Shown here one piece after another: positions 2,266 through 52,323 of a stretch of 64,000 nucleotides of DNA. This DNA is from Maricaulis parjimensis (GTDB taxonomy: Bacteria > Pseudomonadota > Alphaproteobacteria > Caulobacterales > Maricaulaceae), in assembly GCF_016817355.1 (NCBI RefSeq), contig NZ_JADOTT010000003.1, positions 62,001 to 126,000 of the forward strand. Reading direction: 5' to 3'. Made by a program: the position numbers and the translations under genes. The notes under the pieces are model-generated. The model made no database searches, was not told the DNA's origin, and worked only from the letters and a program-made list of their open reading frames with translations. Position 1 is the stretch's first letter. The number at the start of each line of letters is the position of its first letter.

Positions 2266-4512
2266 CTAGTCCTCATTCCCCAACTGCCGATCAAAATAAT
2301 CCAGCACCATCGTCCAGAGCTGGACCGAGCGGTCCTCGCCGCGCACGCCGTGGCGCTGGCCGGGATAGGTCATCATCTCGAACTGGGCGCGTTGCTGTTG
2401 CAGTTGGGCGTAGAGGCGCACGGAATTGGCGAAGATGACATTGTCATCGGCCATGCCGTGGATCAGCAGGAGCGGGGTCTCGTAATTTTCCAGATGGGCG
2501 AAGACGGAAGAGGCCTGATAGCCCTCAAAATTCGCATCCGGATGATCCATGTAGCGCTCGGTATAGGCCGTGTCATAGAGCGTCCAGTCGGTGACCGGAG
2601 CGCCGGACACGCCCGCCGCATAGGCACCTGGCGCCTGCAGCGTGGTCATCAGGGTCATATAGCCGCCATAGGACCAGCCCCAGATGCCGACGCGGTCGGC
2701 ATCCACGAAGTCCAGGCTTTTCAGATAGTCCAGGCCGACCAGCTGGTCTTCCACCTCGACCGAGCCCATGCGGCGCTGGATATGGCTTTCAAACTCCCGG
2801 CCCCGGTTCCAGGCGCCGCGATTGTCGATGGTGAAATAGACATAGCCGCGCTGGGCAAAGAGCTGCGGGCGGAAACCCTGCCAGCCGCGATGCACCTGCT
2901 GGGAGTGCGGGCCGCCATAGAGATACTGGATCGCCGGATATTGCCGGGACGGATCGAAATCCGCCGGCAGGTAGAGCTGGTAGTGCAGCTCGGTTCCGTC
3001 CGCCGCCGTCAGCGTGCCGAATTGCGGCACGATATGGTCGTCCGCATAGTCGAAATAGGGATGCCCCTCGATAACGGCATTCTCCTCGATCCAGCGGATG
3101 CGCTCGCCATCATTGGCGTAGAGCGCCGTCTGGGACGGGGTCGCGCTGTCATTATAGGTGCCGATGAAAGCCGTCGCGCCGCGATTATAGCTGACCGACC
3201 AGCGGCCTTCGCCGGAGGTGATGCGCGTCGGTTCGGCCGACCCGTCCAGCGGCACGACATAGGCGTGGCGCTCCAGCGGGGTCTCCATCCAGCCGGTGAA
3301 ATAGACCAGCCCGTTTTCGGTATCCACGGCATCGATCTCATTGACCAGCCAGTCGCCCGACGTCACCTGGGTGATCAGACTGCCATCGGCGGCGCGGTGC
3401 TGGATATGGCGATAGCCGCCTGGCGTGTCTTCGCTGGTCCAGATCACGCTGCCATCGGGCAGGGCGCGGAAATCATTGGTCAGATTGATCCACACATCCG
3501 TGGTCTCTTCCAGCCAGACCGAGCTCTCGCCCGTGGCCGGATCGACCGCCAGGATGGTCAGTTCATTCTGCATCCGGTTGAGCACCTGGACATAGGCGGT
3601 GGCGCCATCGCGCGACCAGTTCACCCGGGCCAGATAGATGTCATCCGTGTCGGACAGCTCCACCTGCACGGCCTCGCCGGTATCGCGGTCGAGGATGAAG
3701 AGCTCGACCAGGGCATTGTCCGTGCCGGCGCGTGGATAGCGCTGGTCGACCACGGTGGCCGAACCGTCGGCAGCGATTTCCATGCGCTGGATATTGTCGA
3801 CCGGGCTTTCATCGACGCGGGCCAGGGCGATGTATTGCTCGGTCGGGGACCACCAGTATCCGGTCCGCCGGCCCAGCTCTTCCTGGGCCACGAATTCCGC
3901 CATGCCCCAGGAGATGAGGCCACCGCCGCGCGTCGTCAGGGCCCGCTCGGCCCCGGTCATCAGGCTGATCTCGTAGAGATTCTGATCGCGGATGAAGGAG
4001 ACGAAATTGCCGCGCGGGGAGATGCGGGCATTGGTTTCATATTCCGGGGTTTCCATCAGGCGCCGGGCGCGACCACCCTCCACCTCGACATGGAAGACAT
4101 CGCCGTCCAGCGGTACCAGAATGGCCTCGCCCTGGCTGTCCCACTGATAGGAGACAATGCCGGACCCGGTGACCCGGGCGCGTTCGCGCAGCTGCCGGGC
4201 GGCTTCGGAAAGCTCTCGTTCTTCCGGCGCCAGCACCCGGCTGTCGACCAGGCGATAGGGTTCACCGCCATCAATATCCATCGCCCACAGGTCGAGAACA
4301 TTGGCGTCCTCTTCCTTCGGCCGCAGGAAGGTCACCCGCGTCCCGTCCGGCGAGAAGCTCAGATTGCGCGGCGCGGATCCGGTCAGGGAAGGGCTCGCAT
4401 AGACGCGTTCCACCGTCAGTGCCGGACCGGTATCGCCCTCCGGTTCCGGCGTGGAAGCCGGCTGGCAGGCGGCAAGGGCGAGGCCGGACAGGGCCAGGAC
4501 AGCGTATTTCAT
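2266..4512 (-). CDS. S9 family dipeptidyl peptidase IV-like lipoprotein
   Basis: A 748-aa secreted peptidase that should remove N-terminal dipeptides from peptides, typically with Pro or Ala in position two. The N-terminus is a lipoprotein signal ('LSGLALAAC', Cys at about 16), so it is probably anchored in the outer or inner membrane facing the periplasm. Residues about 30-500 form the DPP-IV N-terminal beta-propeller, including 'WGMAEFVAQEELGR', which carries the Glu pair that binds the substrate amino terminus in this family. The C-terminal alpha/beta hydrolase has the nucleophile in GWSYGGY (Ser about 614), the Asp in 'HGMADDNV' and the His in 'GQRHGVR'. All catalytic residues are present and the length is normal for bacterial DPP-IV. 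It is transcribed alone and convergent with the 1790 gene. Confidence 0.92.
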   Translation of the reverse strand: MKYAVLALSGLALAACQPASTPEPEGDTGPALTVERVYASPSLTGSAPRNLSFSPDGTRVTFLRPKEEDANVLDLWAMDIDGGEPYRLVDSRVLAPEERELSEAARQLRERARVTGSGIVSYQWDSQGEAILVPLDGDVFHVEVEGGRARRLMETPEYETNARISPRGNFVSFIRDQNLYEISLMTGAERALTTRGGGLISWGMAEFVAQEELGRRTGYWWSPTEQYIALARVDESPVDNIQRMEIAADGSATVVDQRYPRAGTDNALVELFILDRDTGEAVQVELSDTDDIYLARVNWSRDGATAYVQVLNRMQNELTILAVDPATGESSVWLEETTDVWINLTNDFRALPDGSVIWTSEDTPGGYRHIQHRAADGSLITQVTSGDWLVNEIDAVDTENGLVYFTGWMETPLERHAYVVPLDGSAEPTRITSGEGRWSVSYNRGATAFIGTYNDSATPSQTALYANDGERIRWIEENAVIEGHPYFDYADDHIVPQFGTLTAADGTELHYQLYLPADFDPSRQYPAIQYLYGGPHSQQVHRGWQGFRPQLFAQRGYVYFTIDNRGAWNRGREFESHIQRRMGSVEVEDQLVGLDYLKSLDFVDADRVGIWGWSYGGYMTLMTTLQAPGAYAAGVSGAPVTDWTLYDTAYTERYMDHPDANFEGYQASSVFAHLENYETPLLLIHGMADDNVIFANSVRLYAQLQQQRAQFEMMTYPGQRHGVRGEDRSVQLWTMVLDYFDRQLGNED

Positions 4513-5805: not shown

Positions 5806-5884
5806 GCCGATTGCCCTGACGGCCTGTCTCCGCTAGACGGTGCCGTTCAGATTTCCCCCCAAGGACAAAGAGAGCCCTTCCACC

Positions 5885-7552
<1,668 letters not shown>

Positions 7553-8993: not shown

Positions 8994-9527
8994 GTGATGA
9001 GCCAAGGCAAGATAATGATGGCAGACACGGTGGAGCCAGGCGGAAAACAAGGCGTGGACACGCTCATCCATGATGAAATGGCGCCGGGATTTCTGGGGCT
9101 TTTGCTGGGCCAGATCGTCGATCGCCTGGTGGAAGAGGGCGGGCCGTCAGCTGAGCGGGCCGGGATTCGCGCGCCGCTGCGCGCCTTTTCCTTCATCTCT
9201 CTCCTGTCCCGCGCGGACCTCACCGTTACCGAGATCGCGCCGCGCCTGGGGGTCACCCATGCCGGTGTCATCAAGACGGAGAAAACGCTGGAGAAGCTGG
9301 GCTTTGTGGAGCGGGGTCAAAACCCGGATGACGCCCGGCGCAAACCCTTGCGCCTGACCGATGCCGGGCGTGAAGAGGCCGAGCGCATTGCCGTCTATAT
9401 GGACCGGGCCTGCGCCGTCTATCGGGAGATGTTTGCTGAAACCGGCATGGATTTGTTTGCGGCCGCGAGGGCCTTTGAAGAGGCGCTGGATCGCAAGGGT
9501 TTCGATGCCCGGATGGGCGATGGTTAG
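8994..9527 (+). CDS. MarR family transcriptional regulator
   Basis: A 177-aa regulator with a winged helix-turn-helix: 'LTVTEIAPRLGVTHAGVIKTEK' is the recognition region, followed by the wing 'GFVERGQNPDDARRKPLRLTDAG', whose DxRRK motif is typical of MarR proteins. Helices at both ends should form the dimer interface. Candidate starts are GTG 8994, ATG 8997 and ATG 9015/9018. The first two lie only a few bases from the palindromic operator and from the GGAAG, so the 9015/9018 start is equally possible. It likely represses itself and the divergent S41 peptidase until a small ligand is bound; the ligand is unknown. Confidence 0.9.
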   Translation: MMSQGKIMMADTVEPGGKQGVDTLIHDEMAPGFLGLLLGQIVDRLVEEGGPSAERAGIRAPLRAFSFISLLSRADLTVTEIAPRLGVTHAGVIKTEKTLEKLGFVERGQNPDDARRKPLRLTDAGREEAERIAVYMDRACAVYREMFAETGMDLFAAARAFEEALDRKGFDARMGDG

Positions 9528-9897
9528 TGCGGGCCTAAATCTACAATTCTGCGAGCACTTCCTCCCTATAGGTCACAGGTCGGTGGGATGAATCGAAGCC
9601 TATTCTGGTGGAAATTAGAAAGACTATGTGGGCCTTTCCTGTTGTGTGGCCGACGTGCCGAACCGCAAAAAATTCCAAGAACAAGTGCTAACGCATCAGT
9701 GCTCACCAGAACCAACTGCATCAAGCTTGCGTCACATACCTCGCTTTTGGCCAACTGAGGCCCGATTTGGGTTTCACATGCATGAACATGTTCTGAAAAA
9801 CGGATCTTCGCCCGCTAGGGTTGGGGATGATCTCGCGAGTATCCTAAAGTCACCAAATTGGGTACAACGTTAGCAATAACAAACAGGGGCCACTCGC
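9528..9897. other. AT-richer intergenic left flank of the NACHT island
   Basis: No convincing gene is seen in these 370 bases. Composition falls from the surrounding high GC to roughly half AT, and the change begins just after the MarR stop codon. One 81-codon frame (9628-9873) has no usable ribosome binding site and no recognisable sequence. A perfect 10-bp palindrome, GAACATGTTC, lies at 9784-9793, about 105 bases before the NACHT start. No tRNA, integrase remnant or flanking direct repeat was found by eye. Confidence 0.6.
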
Positions 9898-11676
9898 ATG
9901 GATGAAAACACGATTCTTGGAATTGCTATTTCCGAACTAGTCAAGTCGGCGGCGAAAACGGGATTCGACGCGATCAGCTCTCAGGTAAAGCGTGGACTGA
10001 ATTTTGGATTATCGGACTACCAAGACTACATAGATGGGCTATTTCAGCGTACACAAAAAATTCGCATTCTGGCGGCCCCAGACCAGCCGCGAAGCGTGTC
10101 CGATCTATATCAAAATGCGCGTCTGATTTCGAGCGCGCAAGAATACAACGACGATATTGTTATTGATCGTTTCATTGCAGGAGAAAGCTGCCTGATCCGC
10201 GGTGTTGCTGGCTCAGGAAAGTCCATGTTGGTGAAGTATGCTCTTCATCGAATACTAACTCAGCATAAAGACCGGTTTCCAATATTCATAGAATTGCGTA
10301 GCTATAACGATAAAGATATTCAGTTCAAGAATCATATAATAAATACGATTTCTGAGCAAATGAATAATAATGGAATTACATGGTCTCAGTTAATCAAGAT
10401 AAAGCCGCTTCTATTTCTAGATGGGTTCGATGAGCTAAATGGCGATAAGCGGCCGAAGGTGATTGAATTTTTAGATTCAGCATTGGTGGCACCGCAAAAT
10501 GTATCTGTATTCCTAACGAGTAGAGATACAAATGAAATTCAAGGTGTCGATGAGGTTCATGCATACAAACTTTCTCCATTTTCCCTCGAGGAGGTGACGT
10601 CACTGGTATCTAAAATATCTATATACTTGGAAAATGCATGCAATTTTATTAATGATTTGCCGGGTATGTACGAGAAACACAAAACTTTCTTATCCAATCC
10701 ATTGCTTGTAAACATGATGCTCATTTCATATGAAGAAAAGATGGATTTCCCGCTCAAAATTGAAGCATTTTATGATCAAGCCTTTGATGCATTATTTGAG
10801 AGGCATGATTTAAGAAAAAAGGGATATAAACGTCAGCGTTACACTTCATTTGATATTGTTGACATGTCCATCTTTTTTGAAATCTTTTGTGCCAAGAGTT
10901 ATTTCGACGGGCTCAGGGATTTCAATGTTGGACAGCTTCGTGACTGTGTTGAGTTTGTTAATAGTAAGCGTGATGACCTTAAGCAAAGGGCTAATGGGAT
11001 AGACGCCGTTGTTAAGGATTTAACTGAATCGACTTGCCTGATGCAGTATGATTCGGGGCGTTACTATTTTTCTCATAGGTCGTTCCAAGAGTATTTCTGT
11101 TCAAAATTCTTATCGAAGTTGGATAAGGATAAGTTATTATCTTCATGTGTATATTTGGAGGCTAAGTACTGGAGCGATCGAGTATTGGATCACGCTTTAC
11201 AGATTGATAGGGTCTCATTAGAGAAGTACTATATAATTCCTCGAATTGAAAAGCTACTCAAGGGAATTGAGGGTGCCCGACGCCCATGGCTCAAGGCACT
11301 GTTTGATGCTTACGGAACCATTGTTATCCATCAGGGGCATTCGGTAGGGCTTCGAGGTGGTGAATATTTAAATTTCATCAGGCTATTGAGTAATAATTAT
11401 TCAAATGTTCCGTTTTTCGACGATCTGTTTGATGCGGTGGTTGATGCTAGAGGGTCGTTGCCTGCTCTGAACGAAAGTCTTCCGCCTAGACTTAAACAAG
11501 GAAGTGGTGATAAAGGGGTGACGGTTATAAAATTTGCCCATTACAATGAAGAAATACTTGTTAGTTTGGGTGTTGATTCAATCGGGAACCAATTGTTGAA
11601 CCGATTAAAAATATTGAGAGATGAATTGATTTCTAATGTTGCCAAAATGGACATCAAAATTGATGATCTGTTTTAA
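9898..11676 (+). CDS. NACHT-domain STAND NTPase, probable anti-phage defence protein
   Basis: A 592-aa protein. A short helical N-terminal region (1-85) precedes a NACHT NTPase: Walker A GVAGSGKS at 102-109, Walker B with the NACHT-type acidic pair in 'LLFLDGFDEL' at 171-180, and sensor 'FLTSRD' at 205-210. The winged-helix end of the module shows 'FSHRSFQEYF' at 391-400, a hallmark of bacterial NACHT proteins. A C-terminal domain of about 180 aa follows, without visible leucine-rich or TPR repeats. A weak ribosome binding site (CAGGGG) precedes the ATG. AT-rich codons set it apart from every other gene in the window, indicating horizontal transfer. Known bacterial NACHT proteins act as single-gene phage sensors. 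No separate effector domain (nuclease, TIR, protease) was recognised, so the N- or C-terminal region would have to carry it. Confidence 0.88.
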   Translation: MDENTILGIAISELVKSAAKTGFDAISSQVKRGLNFGLSDYQDYIDGLFQRTQKIRILAAPDQPRSVSDLYQNARLISSAQEYNDDIVIDRFIAGESCLIRGVAGSGKSMLVKYALHRILTQHKDRFPIFIELRSYNDKDIQFKNHIINTISEQMNNNGITWSQLIKIKPLLFLDGFDELNGDKRPKVIEFLDSALVAPQNVSVFLTSRDTNEIQGVDEVHAYKLSPFSLEEVTSLVSKISIYLENACNFINDLPGMYEKHKTFLSNPLLVNMMLISYEEKMDFPLKIEAFYDQAFDALFERHDLRKKGYKRQRYTSFDIVDMSIFFEIFCAKSYFDGLRDFNVGQLRDCVEFVNSKRDDLKQRANGIDAVVKDLTESTCLMQYDSGRYYFSHRSFQEYFCSKFLSKLDKDKLLSSCVYLEAKYWSDRVLDHALQIDRVSLEKYYIIPRIEKLLKGIEGARRPWLKALFDAYGTIVIHQGHSVGLRGGEYLNFIRLLSNNYSNVPFFDDLFDAVVDARGSLPALNESLPPRLKQGSGDKGVTVIKFAHYNEEILVSLGVDSIGNQLLNRLKILRDELISNVAKMDIKIDDLF

Positions 11677-11695
11677 TCAAGGCGTTGATTTTTCC
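11675..11695 (+). terminator. Weak hairpin at NACHT stop codon
   Basis: AATCAA-GGCG-TTGATT forms a 6-bp stem followed by TTT, overlapping the TAA stop. It lies between convergent genes. The stem is short and AT-rich, so termination there is only possible. Confidence 0.3.
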
Positions 11696-11700
11696 GCCGG

Positions 11701-12984
11701 CTAGATCCGCGCGGCAGAGAAGGCCTGCGTATCAATAGCCGGTGTCTCATCACTCATCAGCGAAGCGAGGACGTCGCCGGACCCCATGGCCTGGGTCCAG
11801 CCGAGATGGCCGTGACCGGTCACCAGCCAGAGACCCTTTGCCCGTGTTTCGCCGATGAAGGGGCGTCCATCCGCCGACATGGGACGGAAGCCGCACCAGG
11901 CCTTCTCTTCTCCCGACAGCAGCGTGTCGGCGATTTGCGGATAGATCGAGCGCAGGAGATTGCGCAGATTGTCGACGCGGTCTTCGCGCAGCGTCCGGTC
12001 GAGCCCGGTGAATTCTGCTGTCCCGGCAATGCGCAGCCGGTCGCCCATCGGCGTGGCAATCGTGTGCAAGGCCTCATCCACGACGGGCAGGCCCGGACGT
12101 TCATTGAGGCCCGACATGTCCAGGGTGAGGGAATAGCCTTTTACCGGACGCACCGGCAGGTGCAGGCCGAGCGGGGCGAGGAGTTTCCAGCTGGCATGGC
12201 CGGTCGCCAGCACAACGGCCTCCACTTCGATCTCTTCATCATCCGTGCGTACGCCGATAATATGGCCGGCCCGGTCGATCAGTTCGTGAACGCGCGTCTG
12301 CCATTCGAACTTCACGCCAGCCGCTTCGGCACGCTTGGCCAGTTCGCGGGTGAAAGCGCGCGCATCGCCGGACTCATCCAGCGGGTAGAAGACAGAGCCG
12401 GCGATCTGGTCACGCACGGCTTCCAGCATGGGTTCGCGGGCCAGGGTCTGCTCGACGTCCAGAATTTCTGATGCCAGCCCCATGTCGGCGAGCGTCTTGT
12501 TGATCCCGTCCCGCACGGCTTCCGGCGGCGCCTCGCGGCAAATTTTCAACGTGCCGCGGCTGAGATTGTCATAGTCCAGCTTCTCTGCCTCGCGCACGGC
12601 CTGGGTGAGTTTCAGGGAGTGATGGGAGAGGGCGAAATTGGCCTGGCAGGCGGCTTCATAGGGTTTGCGACGGGAATTCCACAGGAAGCGCAGCCCCCAG
12701 GGCGTCAGACCGGGCACGGCTTTCAGCCGCAGCTTCATCGGCGAGTGCGGGTCGGCGAGCGATGAGAGAAGCTGCCAGTGCACGCCGGGTGCATTCCAGG
12801 GTTCCGGTTCGGACGGGGTCAGGGCCCCGGCATTGGCGAAACTGGTTTCCTCGGCCGGTCCGTCATGCGCATCGAACACGGTCACACGGTGACCGCGCTG
12901 GCGCAAAGCCCAGGCGGAGGCGATTCCGGCCAGGCCGGCGCCAATGATCAGGATTTCCTTTGCAGGCAAGGCAGCCTCCGGCAA
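11701..12984 (-). CDS. dadA: FAD-dependent D-amino acid dehydrogenase (DadA family)
   Basis: A 427-aa flavoprotein that should deaminate D-amino acids (D-alanine in the best-known members) to 2-oxo acids, passing electrons to the respiratory chain. The Rossmann FAD motif GAGLAG is at 15-20 and is followed by the acidic end of the second strand ('VFDAHDGPAEETSFANAG', including the ETSxANAG motif typical of DadA). The C-terminal 'TGHGHLGWTQAMGSG' is the second FAD contact. Length fits DadA (about 430). No alanine racemase gene is adjacent, so catabolic linkage is not visible. In a cell wall context it may recycle D-Ala released from peptidoglycan. Confidence 0.88.
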   Translation of the reverse strand: MPEAALPAKEILIIGAGLAGIASAWALRQRGHRVTVFDAHDGPAEETSFANAGALTPSEPEPWNAPGVHWQLLSSLADPHSPMKLRLKAVPGLTPWGLRFLWNSRRKPYEAACQANFALSHHSLKLTQAVREAEKLDYDNLSRGTLKICREAPPEAVRDGINKTLADMGLASEILDVEQTLAREPMLEAVRDQIAGSVFYPLDESGDARAFTRELAKRAEAAGVKFEWQTRVHELIDRAGHIIGVRTDDEEIEVEAVVLATGHASWKLLAPLGLHLPVRPVKGYSLTLDMSGLNERPGLPVVDEALHTIATPMGDRLRIAGTAEFTGLDRTLREDRVDNLRNLLRSIYPQIADTLLSGEEKAWCGFRPMSADGRPFIGETRAKGLWLVTGHGHLGWTQAMGSGDVLASLMSDETPAIDTQAFSAARI

Positions 12985-13066
12985 GCGAGATACACGGGCT
13001 GGTTTGAACTTCGTGACAATACGGATAAAAGCAAGCCGTTAGTGCGCTTCACCCGATCCGGATGTC

Positions 13067-14008
13067 ATGGATTCTCTGGTTGCCCAGCTTAAGGCGCTTG
13101 CCGAGCCGACCCGCTTGCGTATCACCGCCCTTCTGTCGCGGGGAGAGCTGACGGTCTCCGAACTGGTCCAGATCCTGGGGCAGAGCCAGCCGCGTGTGTC
13201 GCGCCATCTCAAACTCCTGACCGAAGCCGGACTGGCGGAACGCCTGCCGGAAGGCGCCTATGTCTTCTACCGGCTGACCGAGGCTGGAGGCGGGCGTCGC
13301 CTGGCCCAGATGGCCAATGATCTCCTGCCCGAGGAAGATCCGGTGATGACCCGGGACTTCTCGCGCCTGGAAGCCATCAAACAGTCGCGTGCCGATGCCG
13401 CCCAGGCCTATTTCGAGAGTGTGGCGGAAGACTGGGACCGGATCCGCTCCTTCCATCTGGCCGACCATGAGGTCGAGGCCGCGATGCGCAAGCTGGCCGG
13501 TGACGGCCCGTTTGATCTGATGATCGATGTCGGTGTCGGTACGGGCCGCGTGCTGGAGGTTTTCTCCGACCGTCTCAAGCGCGGGATCGGCGTCGACATC
13601 AACCATTCCATGCTGAACATGGCGCGCCTGAACCTGGAAAAGGCGGGCTTGCGCCATTGCTCCGTGCGCCATGCCGATGTCGGGGCGCTGCCCTTTGACA
13701 CGTCGGCGGCCGATCTGGTGACGGTTCACCAGGTACTCCACTATCTGGAAGATCCCGGCCTTGCCGTGGAGGAATGCGCCCGTGTGCTCAAGCCCGGCGG
13801 CAATCTCCTGATCGTGGATTTCGCCCCGCACCAGCTGGAGACCCTGCGCGAGGATCACTACCACCGCCGGCTCGGTTTCTCAGACGAGGAAATGCGCAGC
13901 TGGATCGAAAGTGCGGGTCTGAAACTGAGCGAACAAGTCGCGCTTCACCCGGAAGAGCCGGGTGGCCAGCTCACCATGAAAATCTGGGTCGCGGCCAAGC
14001 CTGCATAA
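13067..14008 (+). CDS. ArsR-family HTH fused to SAM-dependent methyltransferase
   Basis: A 313-aa two-domain protein. Residues 1-90 are an ArsR-type winged helix ('LAEPTRLRITALLSRGELTVSE', then 'QSQPRVSRHLKLL'). Residues about 110-310 are a class I methyltransferase with SAM motif I 'DVGVGTG' at 154-160, an acidic strand end ('GVDIN') and motif IV-like 'ADLVTVHQVLHYL'. No metal-binding Cys pair is seen in the regulator half, so metal sensing is unlikely. In several alphaproteobacteria such fusions lie beside metF and methionine genes; here no metF is adjacent. It is divergent from dadA, with an 82-bp gap. The simplest role is a SAM-responsive regulator, which is an inference. Confidence 0.85.
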   Translation: MDSLVAQLKALAEPTRLRITALLSRGELTVSELVQILGQSQPRVSRHLKLLTEAGLAERLPEGAYVFYRLTEAGGGRRLAQMANDLLPEEDPVMTRDFSRLEAIKQSRADAAQAYFESVAEDWDRIRSFHLADHEVEAAMRKLAGDGPFDLMIDVGVGTGRVLEVFSDRLKRGIGVDINHSMLNMARLNLEKAGLRHCSVRHADVGALPFDTSAADLVTVHQVLHYLEDPGLAVEECARVLKPGGNLLIVDFAPHQLETLREDHYHRRLGFSDEEMRSWIESAGLKLSEQVALHPEEPGGQLTMKIWVAAKPA

Positions 14009-14072
14009 TTTCACAGCTAGGCGGCCGGCCTTTTCAGGCTAGACTGCTCCTCGGTTTTTTGTGGGGGCAAGT

Positions 14073-14696
14073 ATGAAAGCCGTGTTGAATCTGGTGAGTC
14101 TCGCCGCGCTGGGGGCGCTGGGCGCAGGCATTTATTTCACCCAAGGTCAGGAGCCGGCCGGACCGGCACCGGATGTCACGCCGGATCCGGTCGTGATGGA
14201 AGACAGCGTGGACGAGGGGGCTGTGGCCGACGAAGGCGTTGATGCGCCGGAGGTCGATGCCGAGGCTGAACCTCAAGCAGCCCGCTATACGGTCGATGGC
14301 ACACAGCCGGGCTATTTCGTTCCGAACGTGGATATCCGCTTCGGCAATTATCTGCTGACCAGCATCATGGTCGAGCCGGCCTATAACGGGTTCGAGGAAC
14401 GCGTGATGCTGTCGCTGGAAGATACCAGCCAGGTCGCCGGCTCGAACGAGTATGGCGATTACTATCAGGGCTATCCTTTCCAGGTGGATGACTGGTCGGT
14501 CACGCCGGAGGGTGTGATGATTTCGGCCAGCCATGCCGAGCTGGGCATGCTCAGCTTCACCGCCAGCTATGATCCGGCCGGTTATGCGGCCTGGACGTCG
14601 GGCGAGGATGCCGTCGGCGAACTCCTGATCGCGGACGTTTCCCTGAATGATGTGACCCGTGAAGGCGTTAGTCTGGCCTTCTGGGTGGGTGACTGA
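14073..14696 (+). CDS. Exported or membrane-anchored protein of unknown function
   Basis: A 207-aa protein. I chose the ATG at 14073 because GGGGGCAAG lies just before it; a GTG at 14061 is in frame but lies within that ribosome binding site. Residues 1-20 form a signal peptide or anchor ('LVSLAALGALGAGIYF'). Residues 25-75 are a low-complexity acidic linker rich in Asp, Glu, Pro and Ala. The rest is a beta-rich domain with many aromatic residues ('YGDYYQGYPFQVDDW'). No family was recognised. It stands between the regulator and the rim operon. Confidence 0.65.
   Translation: MKAVLNLVSLAALGALGAGIYFTQGQEPAGPAPDVTPDPVVMEDSVDEGAVADEGVDAPEVDAEAEPQAARYTVDGTQPGYFVPNVDIRFGNYLLTSIMVEPAYNGFEERVMLSLEDTSQVAGSNEYGDYYQGYPFQVDDWSVTPEGVMISASHAELGMLSFTASYDPAGYAAWTSGEDAVGELLIADVSLNDVTREGVSLAFWVGD

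Positions 14697-48481: not shown

Positions 48482-52323
<3,842 letters not shown>

Follow-up and report, generated by a model that had tools for sequence, protein, structure and literature searches.

STAND proteins are held at rest as ADP-bound monomers and act through C-terminal sensing, nucleotide exchange, oligomerisation and N-terminal activation. The clades of the bacterial NACHT (bNACHT) proteins were reportedly defined by Kibby et al. in 2023. In PMC12169576, bNACHT12 is placed in clade 14 and protects against DNA and RNA phages, and the proteins of this clade are said all to carry SNaCT C-terminal domains and to lack readily discernible effectors. Here we compare with these systems a gene at positions 9898 to 11676 of a 64-kb stretch of the Maricaulis parjimensis genome (contig NZ_JADOTT010000003.1, positions 62,001 to 126,000; hereafter the window). 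Judged from sequence, its product, P0001, is a single-gene NACHT NTPase that belongs, as a divergent member, to the bacterial NLR-related (bNACHT) proteins. We consider it likely that it is a single-protein anti-phage defence of the bNACHT type, in the short form, in which the position of a SNaCT domain is taken by a C-terminal domain that has diverged.

We infer a role in phage defence, which is well supported by homology. P0001 has the NACHT motifs, a NACHT module homologous to that of bNACHT12, which has been tested, an NLR-like predicted fold and a C-terminal region with a SNaCT-like start, and it is encoded in a clean insert. Among the bacterial proteins related to animal NLR receptors, it would be a distant single-gene addition, within a known family and not a new kind of system.

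The NACHT module and its relatives

The gene and its parts are the following:

9898..11676, + strand: NACHT NTPase gene, 592 amino acids (P0001), ATG start (open reading frame, Pfam and alignments)
9885..9889, + strand: probable ribosome-binding site AGGGG, 8 nt upstream of the ATG, as read from the sequence
9898..9993, + strand: N-terminal helix, residues 1-32, of low confidence (structure model), possibly an effector
10189..10614, + strand: NACHT NTPase core, residues 98-239 (Pfam PF05729)
10201..10224, + strand: Walker A GVAGSGKS, residues 102-109 (sequence and alignments)
10408..10437, + strand: Walker B LLFLDGFDEL, residues 171-180 (sequence and alignments)
11068..11097, + strand: end of the NACHT module, FSHRSFQEYF, residues 391-400 (sequence and alignments)
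11155..11673, + strand: C-terminal region, residues 420-592, with a long terminal helix and KIDDLF at its end (profile and alignment)

The NACHT domain was recovered with an E-value of 1.1e-11 and 45.2 bits, above the cut-off of 26.7 (Pfam PF05729), and together with Walker A, the acidic Walker B and a sensor-type arginine, R209, it gives P0001 the features by which a NACHT/STAND protein is recognised. An earlier note on this DNA had described an intact Walker A, an acidic Walker B, a sensor and an FxHxxFQEYF-type module end, and all of them are indeed present and fall in conserved columns: G105, G107, K108, D175, D178, E179, R209 and H393 are invariant in alignments of 10 and of 63 sequences, both including P0001, the larger consisting of P0001 and 62 relatives from viral contigs. 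The structure model predicts the NLR-like arrangement that was looked for, with NTPase, helical and winged-helix parts. With Pfam at E-values up to 1, P0001 gives only NACHT and generic P-loop matches and no DNA-binding domain, and a phmmer search against PDB yielded weak matches, the best with an E-value of 0.59.

Relatives of P0001 are sporadic in the class, occurring in 5 of 384 other sampled genomes, and among the relatives of the window's own genome they were found in one of 60 other genomes. They also occur in 169 of 72,556 plasmid records, of which 123 are plasmids typed as conjugative, at no fewer than 78 viral-contig loci, and in two of 50,697 phage records, both of Vibrio phages; one phage record, PQ189336.1, labels its relative NLR_like_bNACHT01. 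From genome contigs, 278 relatives were confirmed out of 369 candidate stretches, and 80 were kept; scanning these contigs with P0001 alone gave weak or empty results. Several individual loci deserve mention. The 14.8-kb genome of a Vibrio phage (Vinavirales; L082) carries its AT-rich NACHT gene, with a GC content of 0.36, near the right end at 12520-14310. A Klebsiella pneumoniae plasmid of 4.2 kb (ColRNAI; L080) has a NACHT frame at 3001-4197 that reaches the end of the circular record and is missing from the gene table, which omits genes that span the record start. The relative in Bartonella sp. HY038 (L098, 2884-4781) consists of two separate open pieces, and the relative G422 carries an in-frame stop.

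We reconstructed a phylogeny of the NACHT module with FastTree from 349 columns and 168 sequences, 12 duplicate or oversized sequences having been dropped; its sampling included bNACHT12, without bNACHT02, 11, 25 or 32 or the published clade alignment. P0001 groups with three proteins of Paracoccus and other Rhodobacteraceae (L238, L195 and L210) and with G422 (support 0.72), on a long branch with a nearest distance of 2.6, and this group lies within a cluster of 127 sequences (support 0.975).

The two ends of the protein

The position and length of the C-terminal region of P0001 fit a SNaCT-type domain that follows the NACHT module. Pfam assigns SNaCT families to many members of the 63-sequence alignment (SNaCT14 to 29, SNaCT13 and SNaCT7 to three each, and SNaCT1, 5, 9 and 11 to one each); none of these models matches P0001 at E-values up to 1, and because bNACHT12 likewise has no such match at E-values up to 0.1, the absence of a Pfam match says little. 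A phmmer search with the C-terminal region alone was weak, with a best E-value of 0.0019 among 179 proteins. A family profile was seeded from seven SNaCT13 proteins, using their C-terminal regions, and iterated over 161 C-terminal regions, from which relatives lacking an H-R/K-S/T-x-Q-E motif were dropped and P0001 was held out. Residues 420-592 of P0001 scored 17.4 bits with the seed profile, 34.5 bits after one round and 31.1 bits at convergence (E-value of 1.5e-7 per 10,000 sequences), while the highest score among 2,000 shuffles was 6.7 bits, and the reported alignment covers residues 424-507.

The SNaCT13 domain starts at the equivalent of residue 436, and a region cut there kept 24.2 bits (E-value of 2e-5; best shuffle 6.1); cuts at residues 440 and 460 left 23.1 and 3.3 bits, respectively. 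Because the score drops at residue 450, homology to the family profile is shown at the sequence level for residues ~424-450 only, and some of these may still lie in the NACHT module, within its last helical part. Residues 451-592 gave no sequence match apart from a short tail motif (one hydrophobic residue, two polar or small, two hydrophobic) within the last 16 residues, which P0001 shares with 72 of 157 relatives, compared with a mean of 16 and a maximum of 25 in shuffles. As far as sequence comparison goes, then, the C-terminal domain is in the SNaCT place, with a start nearer to that of SNaCT13 carriers than to that of bNACHT12 and a remainder that sequence does not place. The earlier note had regarded a C-terminal domain of about 180 residues as unplaceable and possibly of a new type, and had proposed searching it separately; this description holds for residues 451-592 and fails for residues ~424-450, which the SNaCT13-seeded profile matches, and a new type of domain does not follow from these results.

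At the other end, P0001 has no recognisable N-terminal effector domain (Pfam, E-values up to 1), and the structure model places a single helix of low confidence, residues 3-32, before the NACHT-linked region. The best 18-residue hydrophobic moment is 0.51 (residues 19-36), and three of 86 other windows of P0001 are equally high. Ten longer relatives offer a comparison: their Walker A lies at residues 224-370 (counted from nominal starts), against residue 102 in P0001, and their extra N-terminal part comprises ~120-270 residues, against one helix in P0001. No Pfam model matches this extra part at an E-value of 1e-4, and the region just before Walker A, around P0001 residues 40-85, appears by eye to be conserved in the ten. 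These relatives (L105, L111, L115, L116, L118, L129, L131, L133, L137 and L140) are long NACHT proteins with SNaCT14 C-terminal domains, and several of them have, by eye, a CGGTFL- or CFGTFA-like motif near the start. Because the helix of P0001 stands where the long relatives carry their larger N-terminal part, residues 1-32 are the best candidate for an effector on the predicted structure, and a role of this helix at the membrane can be put forward as a hypothesis.

If P0001 works as other STAND proteins do, it would rest as an ADP-bound monomer restrained by its winged-helix and C-terminal parts, and the C-terminal region would detect either a phage product or the effect that this has on the cell. 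Nucleotide exchange would then allow the NACHT modules to assemble into a ring, bringing the N-terminal helices together so that the cell is killed or stopped; the cluster of helices would perhaps act on the membrane, which is the weakest step of the scheme. A bolder version, which we consider rather unlikely, holds that P0001 represents a branch of the short bNACHT proteins that has not been described before, in which residues 451-592 form a new phage sensor and the amphipathic helix is a membrane-breaking ring effector, as in plant resistosomes. If this were true, such a helix would supply the effector that short bNACHT proteins generally seem to lack. Apart from this version, the comparison of short with long relatives points to a testable answer to how short bNACHT proteins with no recognised effector stop phage.

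The insertion site and its base composition

The surroundings of the gene comprise the following features:

8994..9527, + strand: MarR-family regulator, left flank (Pfam MarR_2, 1.7e-8; synteny)
9528..11700, no strand: whole insert, 2,173 bp, missing at the junction of G012 and other congeners
9528..9897, + strand: insert leader, 370 bp, GC content 0.48-0.51 (composition; no family assigned)
11701..12984, - strand: DadA-like FAD-dependent oxidoreductase, right flank, convergent (Pfam DAO, 1.2e-72; synteny)

The NACHT gene is the single gene of the insert, between convergent MarR and DadA-like genes. We searched 18 congeners (two of them incomplete, G007 at 69% and G012 at 65%), and none matches P0001 at an E-value of 0.001, so that the same gene at this locus in close relatives, the outcome by which the earlier note would have been refuted, was sought and not found. 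An orthologue of DadA (at least 62% identity) is present in 15 of the 18, with only short weak matches in G006, G008 and G017, and the MarR-DadA junction is present in nine of these 15, MarR adjoining the DadA-like gene in eight and its 3' end in G012. The latter is the closest congener by DadA (92% identical); its contig breaks off within MarR, 45 bases beyond the end of the DadA coding sequence, and it shows an empty site at which the stop codons of MarR and DadA overlap as CTAG. Compared with G012, the window has 2,173 bases more between the MarR TAG and the DadA CTA. The single-gene island that the earlier note had drawn at 9528..11695 thus keeps its start and its lone gene, and its end moves to 11700. 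The insertion is unusually clean: it lies between two convergent stop codons, and in a sister species these overlap.

Elsewhere in the genus this junction is either nearly closed or differently filled. The gap between the aligned ends of MarR and DadA is ~11 bases in G003, ~20 in G016, ~23 in G002 and ~44 in G014, and at native GC content there is a GNAT gene within 500 bases in G011, two open reading frames of 247 and 213 amino acids without a Pfam match in 1.5 kb in G005, and one GDSL-autotransporter gene in 2.5 kb in each of G007 and G013. No MarR match was found beside DadA in the stretches fetched from G018, G015, G009, G004, G001 and G010. The junction thus accepts single genes, and the empty site in G012 points to a gain of the NACHT gene in this lineage; the sequence comparison is best explained by a gain within the genus. 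The junctions extracted as L063, L064, L065, L066 and L077 (the last being G012) hold varied single genes or almost nothing. A NACHT match above the Pfam cut-off occurs in two of 19 genus genomes including that of the window, and the only other one lies at G008:C27:67157-67576, within an open frame of 322 amino acids.

The composition of the insert differs sharply from that of its surroundings. The NACHT gene has a GC content of 0.397 and a third-position GC content (GC3) of 0.396, compared with GC3 values of 0.74-0.81 in seven neighbouring genes, and the interval 9525-11703 has a GC content of 0.416, compared with a mean of 0.640 (standard deviation 0.0155, minimum 0.594) in 575 overlapping windows of equal length from the rest of the 64 kb. 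No 1-kb window outside the insert falls below 0.58. The AT-rich island described earlier is thus confirmed, as is its left boundary just past the MarR stop, where the GC content shifts from 0.627 in MarR to 0.48-0.51 in blocks of 9528-9897. We considered AT-richness as proof of recent transfer and rejected it, given that 69 of 70 relative genes are GC-poorer than their own flanks (mean -0.142), compared with a mean of +0.039 for 342 other open reading frames at the same loci, a control that may contain spurious frames; the 70 are the usable loci among the 80 retained relatives, all from named genomes (L180-L259). With low GC content in nearly all relatives, composition by itself neither shows nor dates a recent transfer. 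Of the recent transfer proposed earlier, the gain in this lineage therefore stands on the empty site, and AT-richness drops out as evidence of recency. For the bNACHT family, AT-richness alone should not count as a sign of recent arrival.

Several identities were tried for the leader and rejected: a gene remnant (two open frames without a Pfam match at E-values up to 0.001), an RNA (no Rfam match in 9400-11800) and a mobile-element end (no plasmid match). Similar segments of 49 bp in G000, at a locus with what we take to be a miaA-like frame, and of 32 bp in G012 (E-value of 0.01) were regarded as chance. A defence island in the window was likewise considered and rejected. Of 44 window open reading frames of 150-1,500 amino acids, PADLOC was run on the 43 that remain once the NACHT gene is set aside, and eight models matched at 1e-10 (mad2, mad3, mad8, two Csa3, AriA, PDC-S06 and PDC-S48), all tracing to four proteins (5840-7549, 48482-50176, 13067-14005 and 50218-52320). 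These are presumably an ABC-F protein, RecN, an ArsR-methyltransferase and DNA ligase; we read the matches as generic domain matches in housekeeping-like proteins, leaving no defence system among the 43.

Competing readings and known systems

A number of observations weigh against the defence reading. The nearest relative of P0001 (L180) is distant, at ~33% identity; PADLOC and NCBIfam assign P0001 to no defence family; and the neighbours of its relatives show no clear defence islands among the 72 of 140 listed proteins scanned, a comparison with no matched control, in which 20 PADLOC models, mostly helicase-type, matched in few proteins. P0001 deviates at two nearly invariant columns of the 63-sequence alignment, with D in place of P210 and S in place of A402. 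In the NACHT tree, bNACHT12 falls in a separate cluster of 31 sequences (support 0.951) that excludes P0001, and the node joining the two has a support of 0.195. Concerning the C-terminal region, three of the seven profile seeds (L198, L209 and L180) were first noticed by weak matches to P0001, the score from residue 450 on is 5.1 bits (E-value of 14) with the signal confined to ~424-450, and the profile misses the C-terminus of bNACHT12 (E-value of 22, and 0.8 bits when the profile is cut). At the N-terminus, amphipathicity is marginal, with p 0.049 versus shuffles, in a helix that is itself predicted with low confidence.

Three other explanations can be set against the same evidence. The frequency of relatives on conjugative-typed plasmids (123 of 169), together with the viral-contig loci and the two Vibrio phage records, would suit a NACHT/STAND protein in the service of a mobile element, acting in superinfection exclusion or element upkeep, left here as lone cargo and directed at competing elements rather than lytic phages. 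We consider this improbable: the insert has no integrase, transposase or replication gene that we could see and no common repeat of 7-12 bp at its ends (9500-9639 versus 11640-11759), and the idea differs from defence more in the beneficiary than in the mechanism. STAND proteins also include regulators, and P0001 has weak Pfam matches to generic AAA families, as might be expected of a regulator or housekeeping NTPase with a signalling or transcription role; given the lack of matches in the 18 congeners, the sporadic distribution in the class, the lack of a DNA-binding domain in Pfam and the defence activity of the tested relative bNACHT12, such a role is very improbable. Equally hard to credit is a former defence gene that is in decay and no longer works. 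The gene is alone and on a long branch, the substitutions at residues 210 and 402 and the in-frame stop of G422, as decay within the family, would be in keeping with this, and promoter and terminator scans found no more sites than in shuffles, with promoter-like sites absent from the leader; P0001 nevertheless retains a full-length frame, a ribosome-binding site, Walker A, Walker B and R209. Single-protein defence remains the explanation that we favour.

Among described systems, several are clearly different from P0001. With the curated NCBIfam model of the antiphage protein EruA (NF058535), P0001 scores 22 bits where the cut-off is 1000, and the model spans 1318 residues compared with the 592 of P0001; no PADLOC Avs (AVAST) model matches at E-values up to 1; the animal NLRs NLRC4, NOD2 and NLRP3 differ in that Pfam finds neither leucine-rich repeats nor a CARD or PYD domain in P0001; and the clade 6 proteins bNACHT25 and bNACHT32 have an N-terminal PD-(D/E)XK nuclease, whereas P0001 has fewer than 100 residues before its NACHT core and no nuclease match. 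The protein XLL20330.1 of Vibrio phage 10N.286.49.B11_PE003 (L082, NLR_like_bNACHT01) is, like P0001, a single short NACHT protein from an AT-rich gene, but it is phage-borne, is 26% identical, and has a C-terminal region unmatched by the profile (E-value of 3).

Other proteins come closer. Those with SNaCT13 (PF22718), such as L184, L102, L198, L209 and L180, share the short form, at 591-600 amino acids, and their C-terminal domain, which seeds the profile, begins at the same place, the equivalent of P0001 residue 436; unlike them, P0001 matches no Pfam SNaCT model and, past residue 450, not the profile either. Proteins from Hellea metagenome-assembled genomes (L252 and L259) and G036, from the family of the window's genome, are short NACHT proteins with a DDMFF tail resembling the DDLF of P0001 and are 26-27% identical to it over about residues 25-456, and the C-terminal regions of G036 and L259 match the same profile as that of P0001, with an E-value of 2e-21 each. 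Lastly, the plasmid gene in L097 encodes WP_021519735.1, the accession given for bNACHT12 in PMC12169576. bNACHT12 differs from P0001 in falling in another cluster of the tree and in having a C-terminal region unmatched by the profile that matches P0001. The two are alike in being single genes, of 612 and 592 amino acids, with a short C-terminal domain and no recognisable effector domain; the bNACHT12 gene is low in GC content too (0.310), and P0001 aligns to bNACHT12 over residues 6-412 with 23.4% identity and an E-value of 8e-24 in a very small search.
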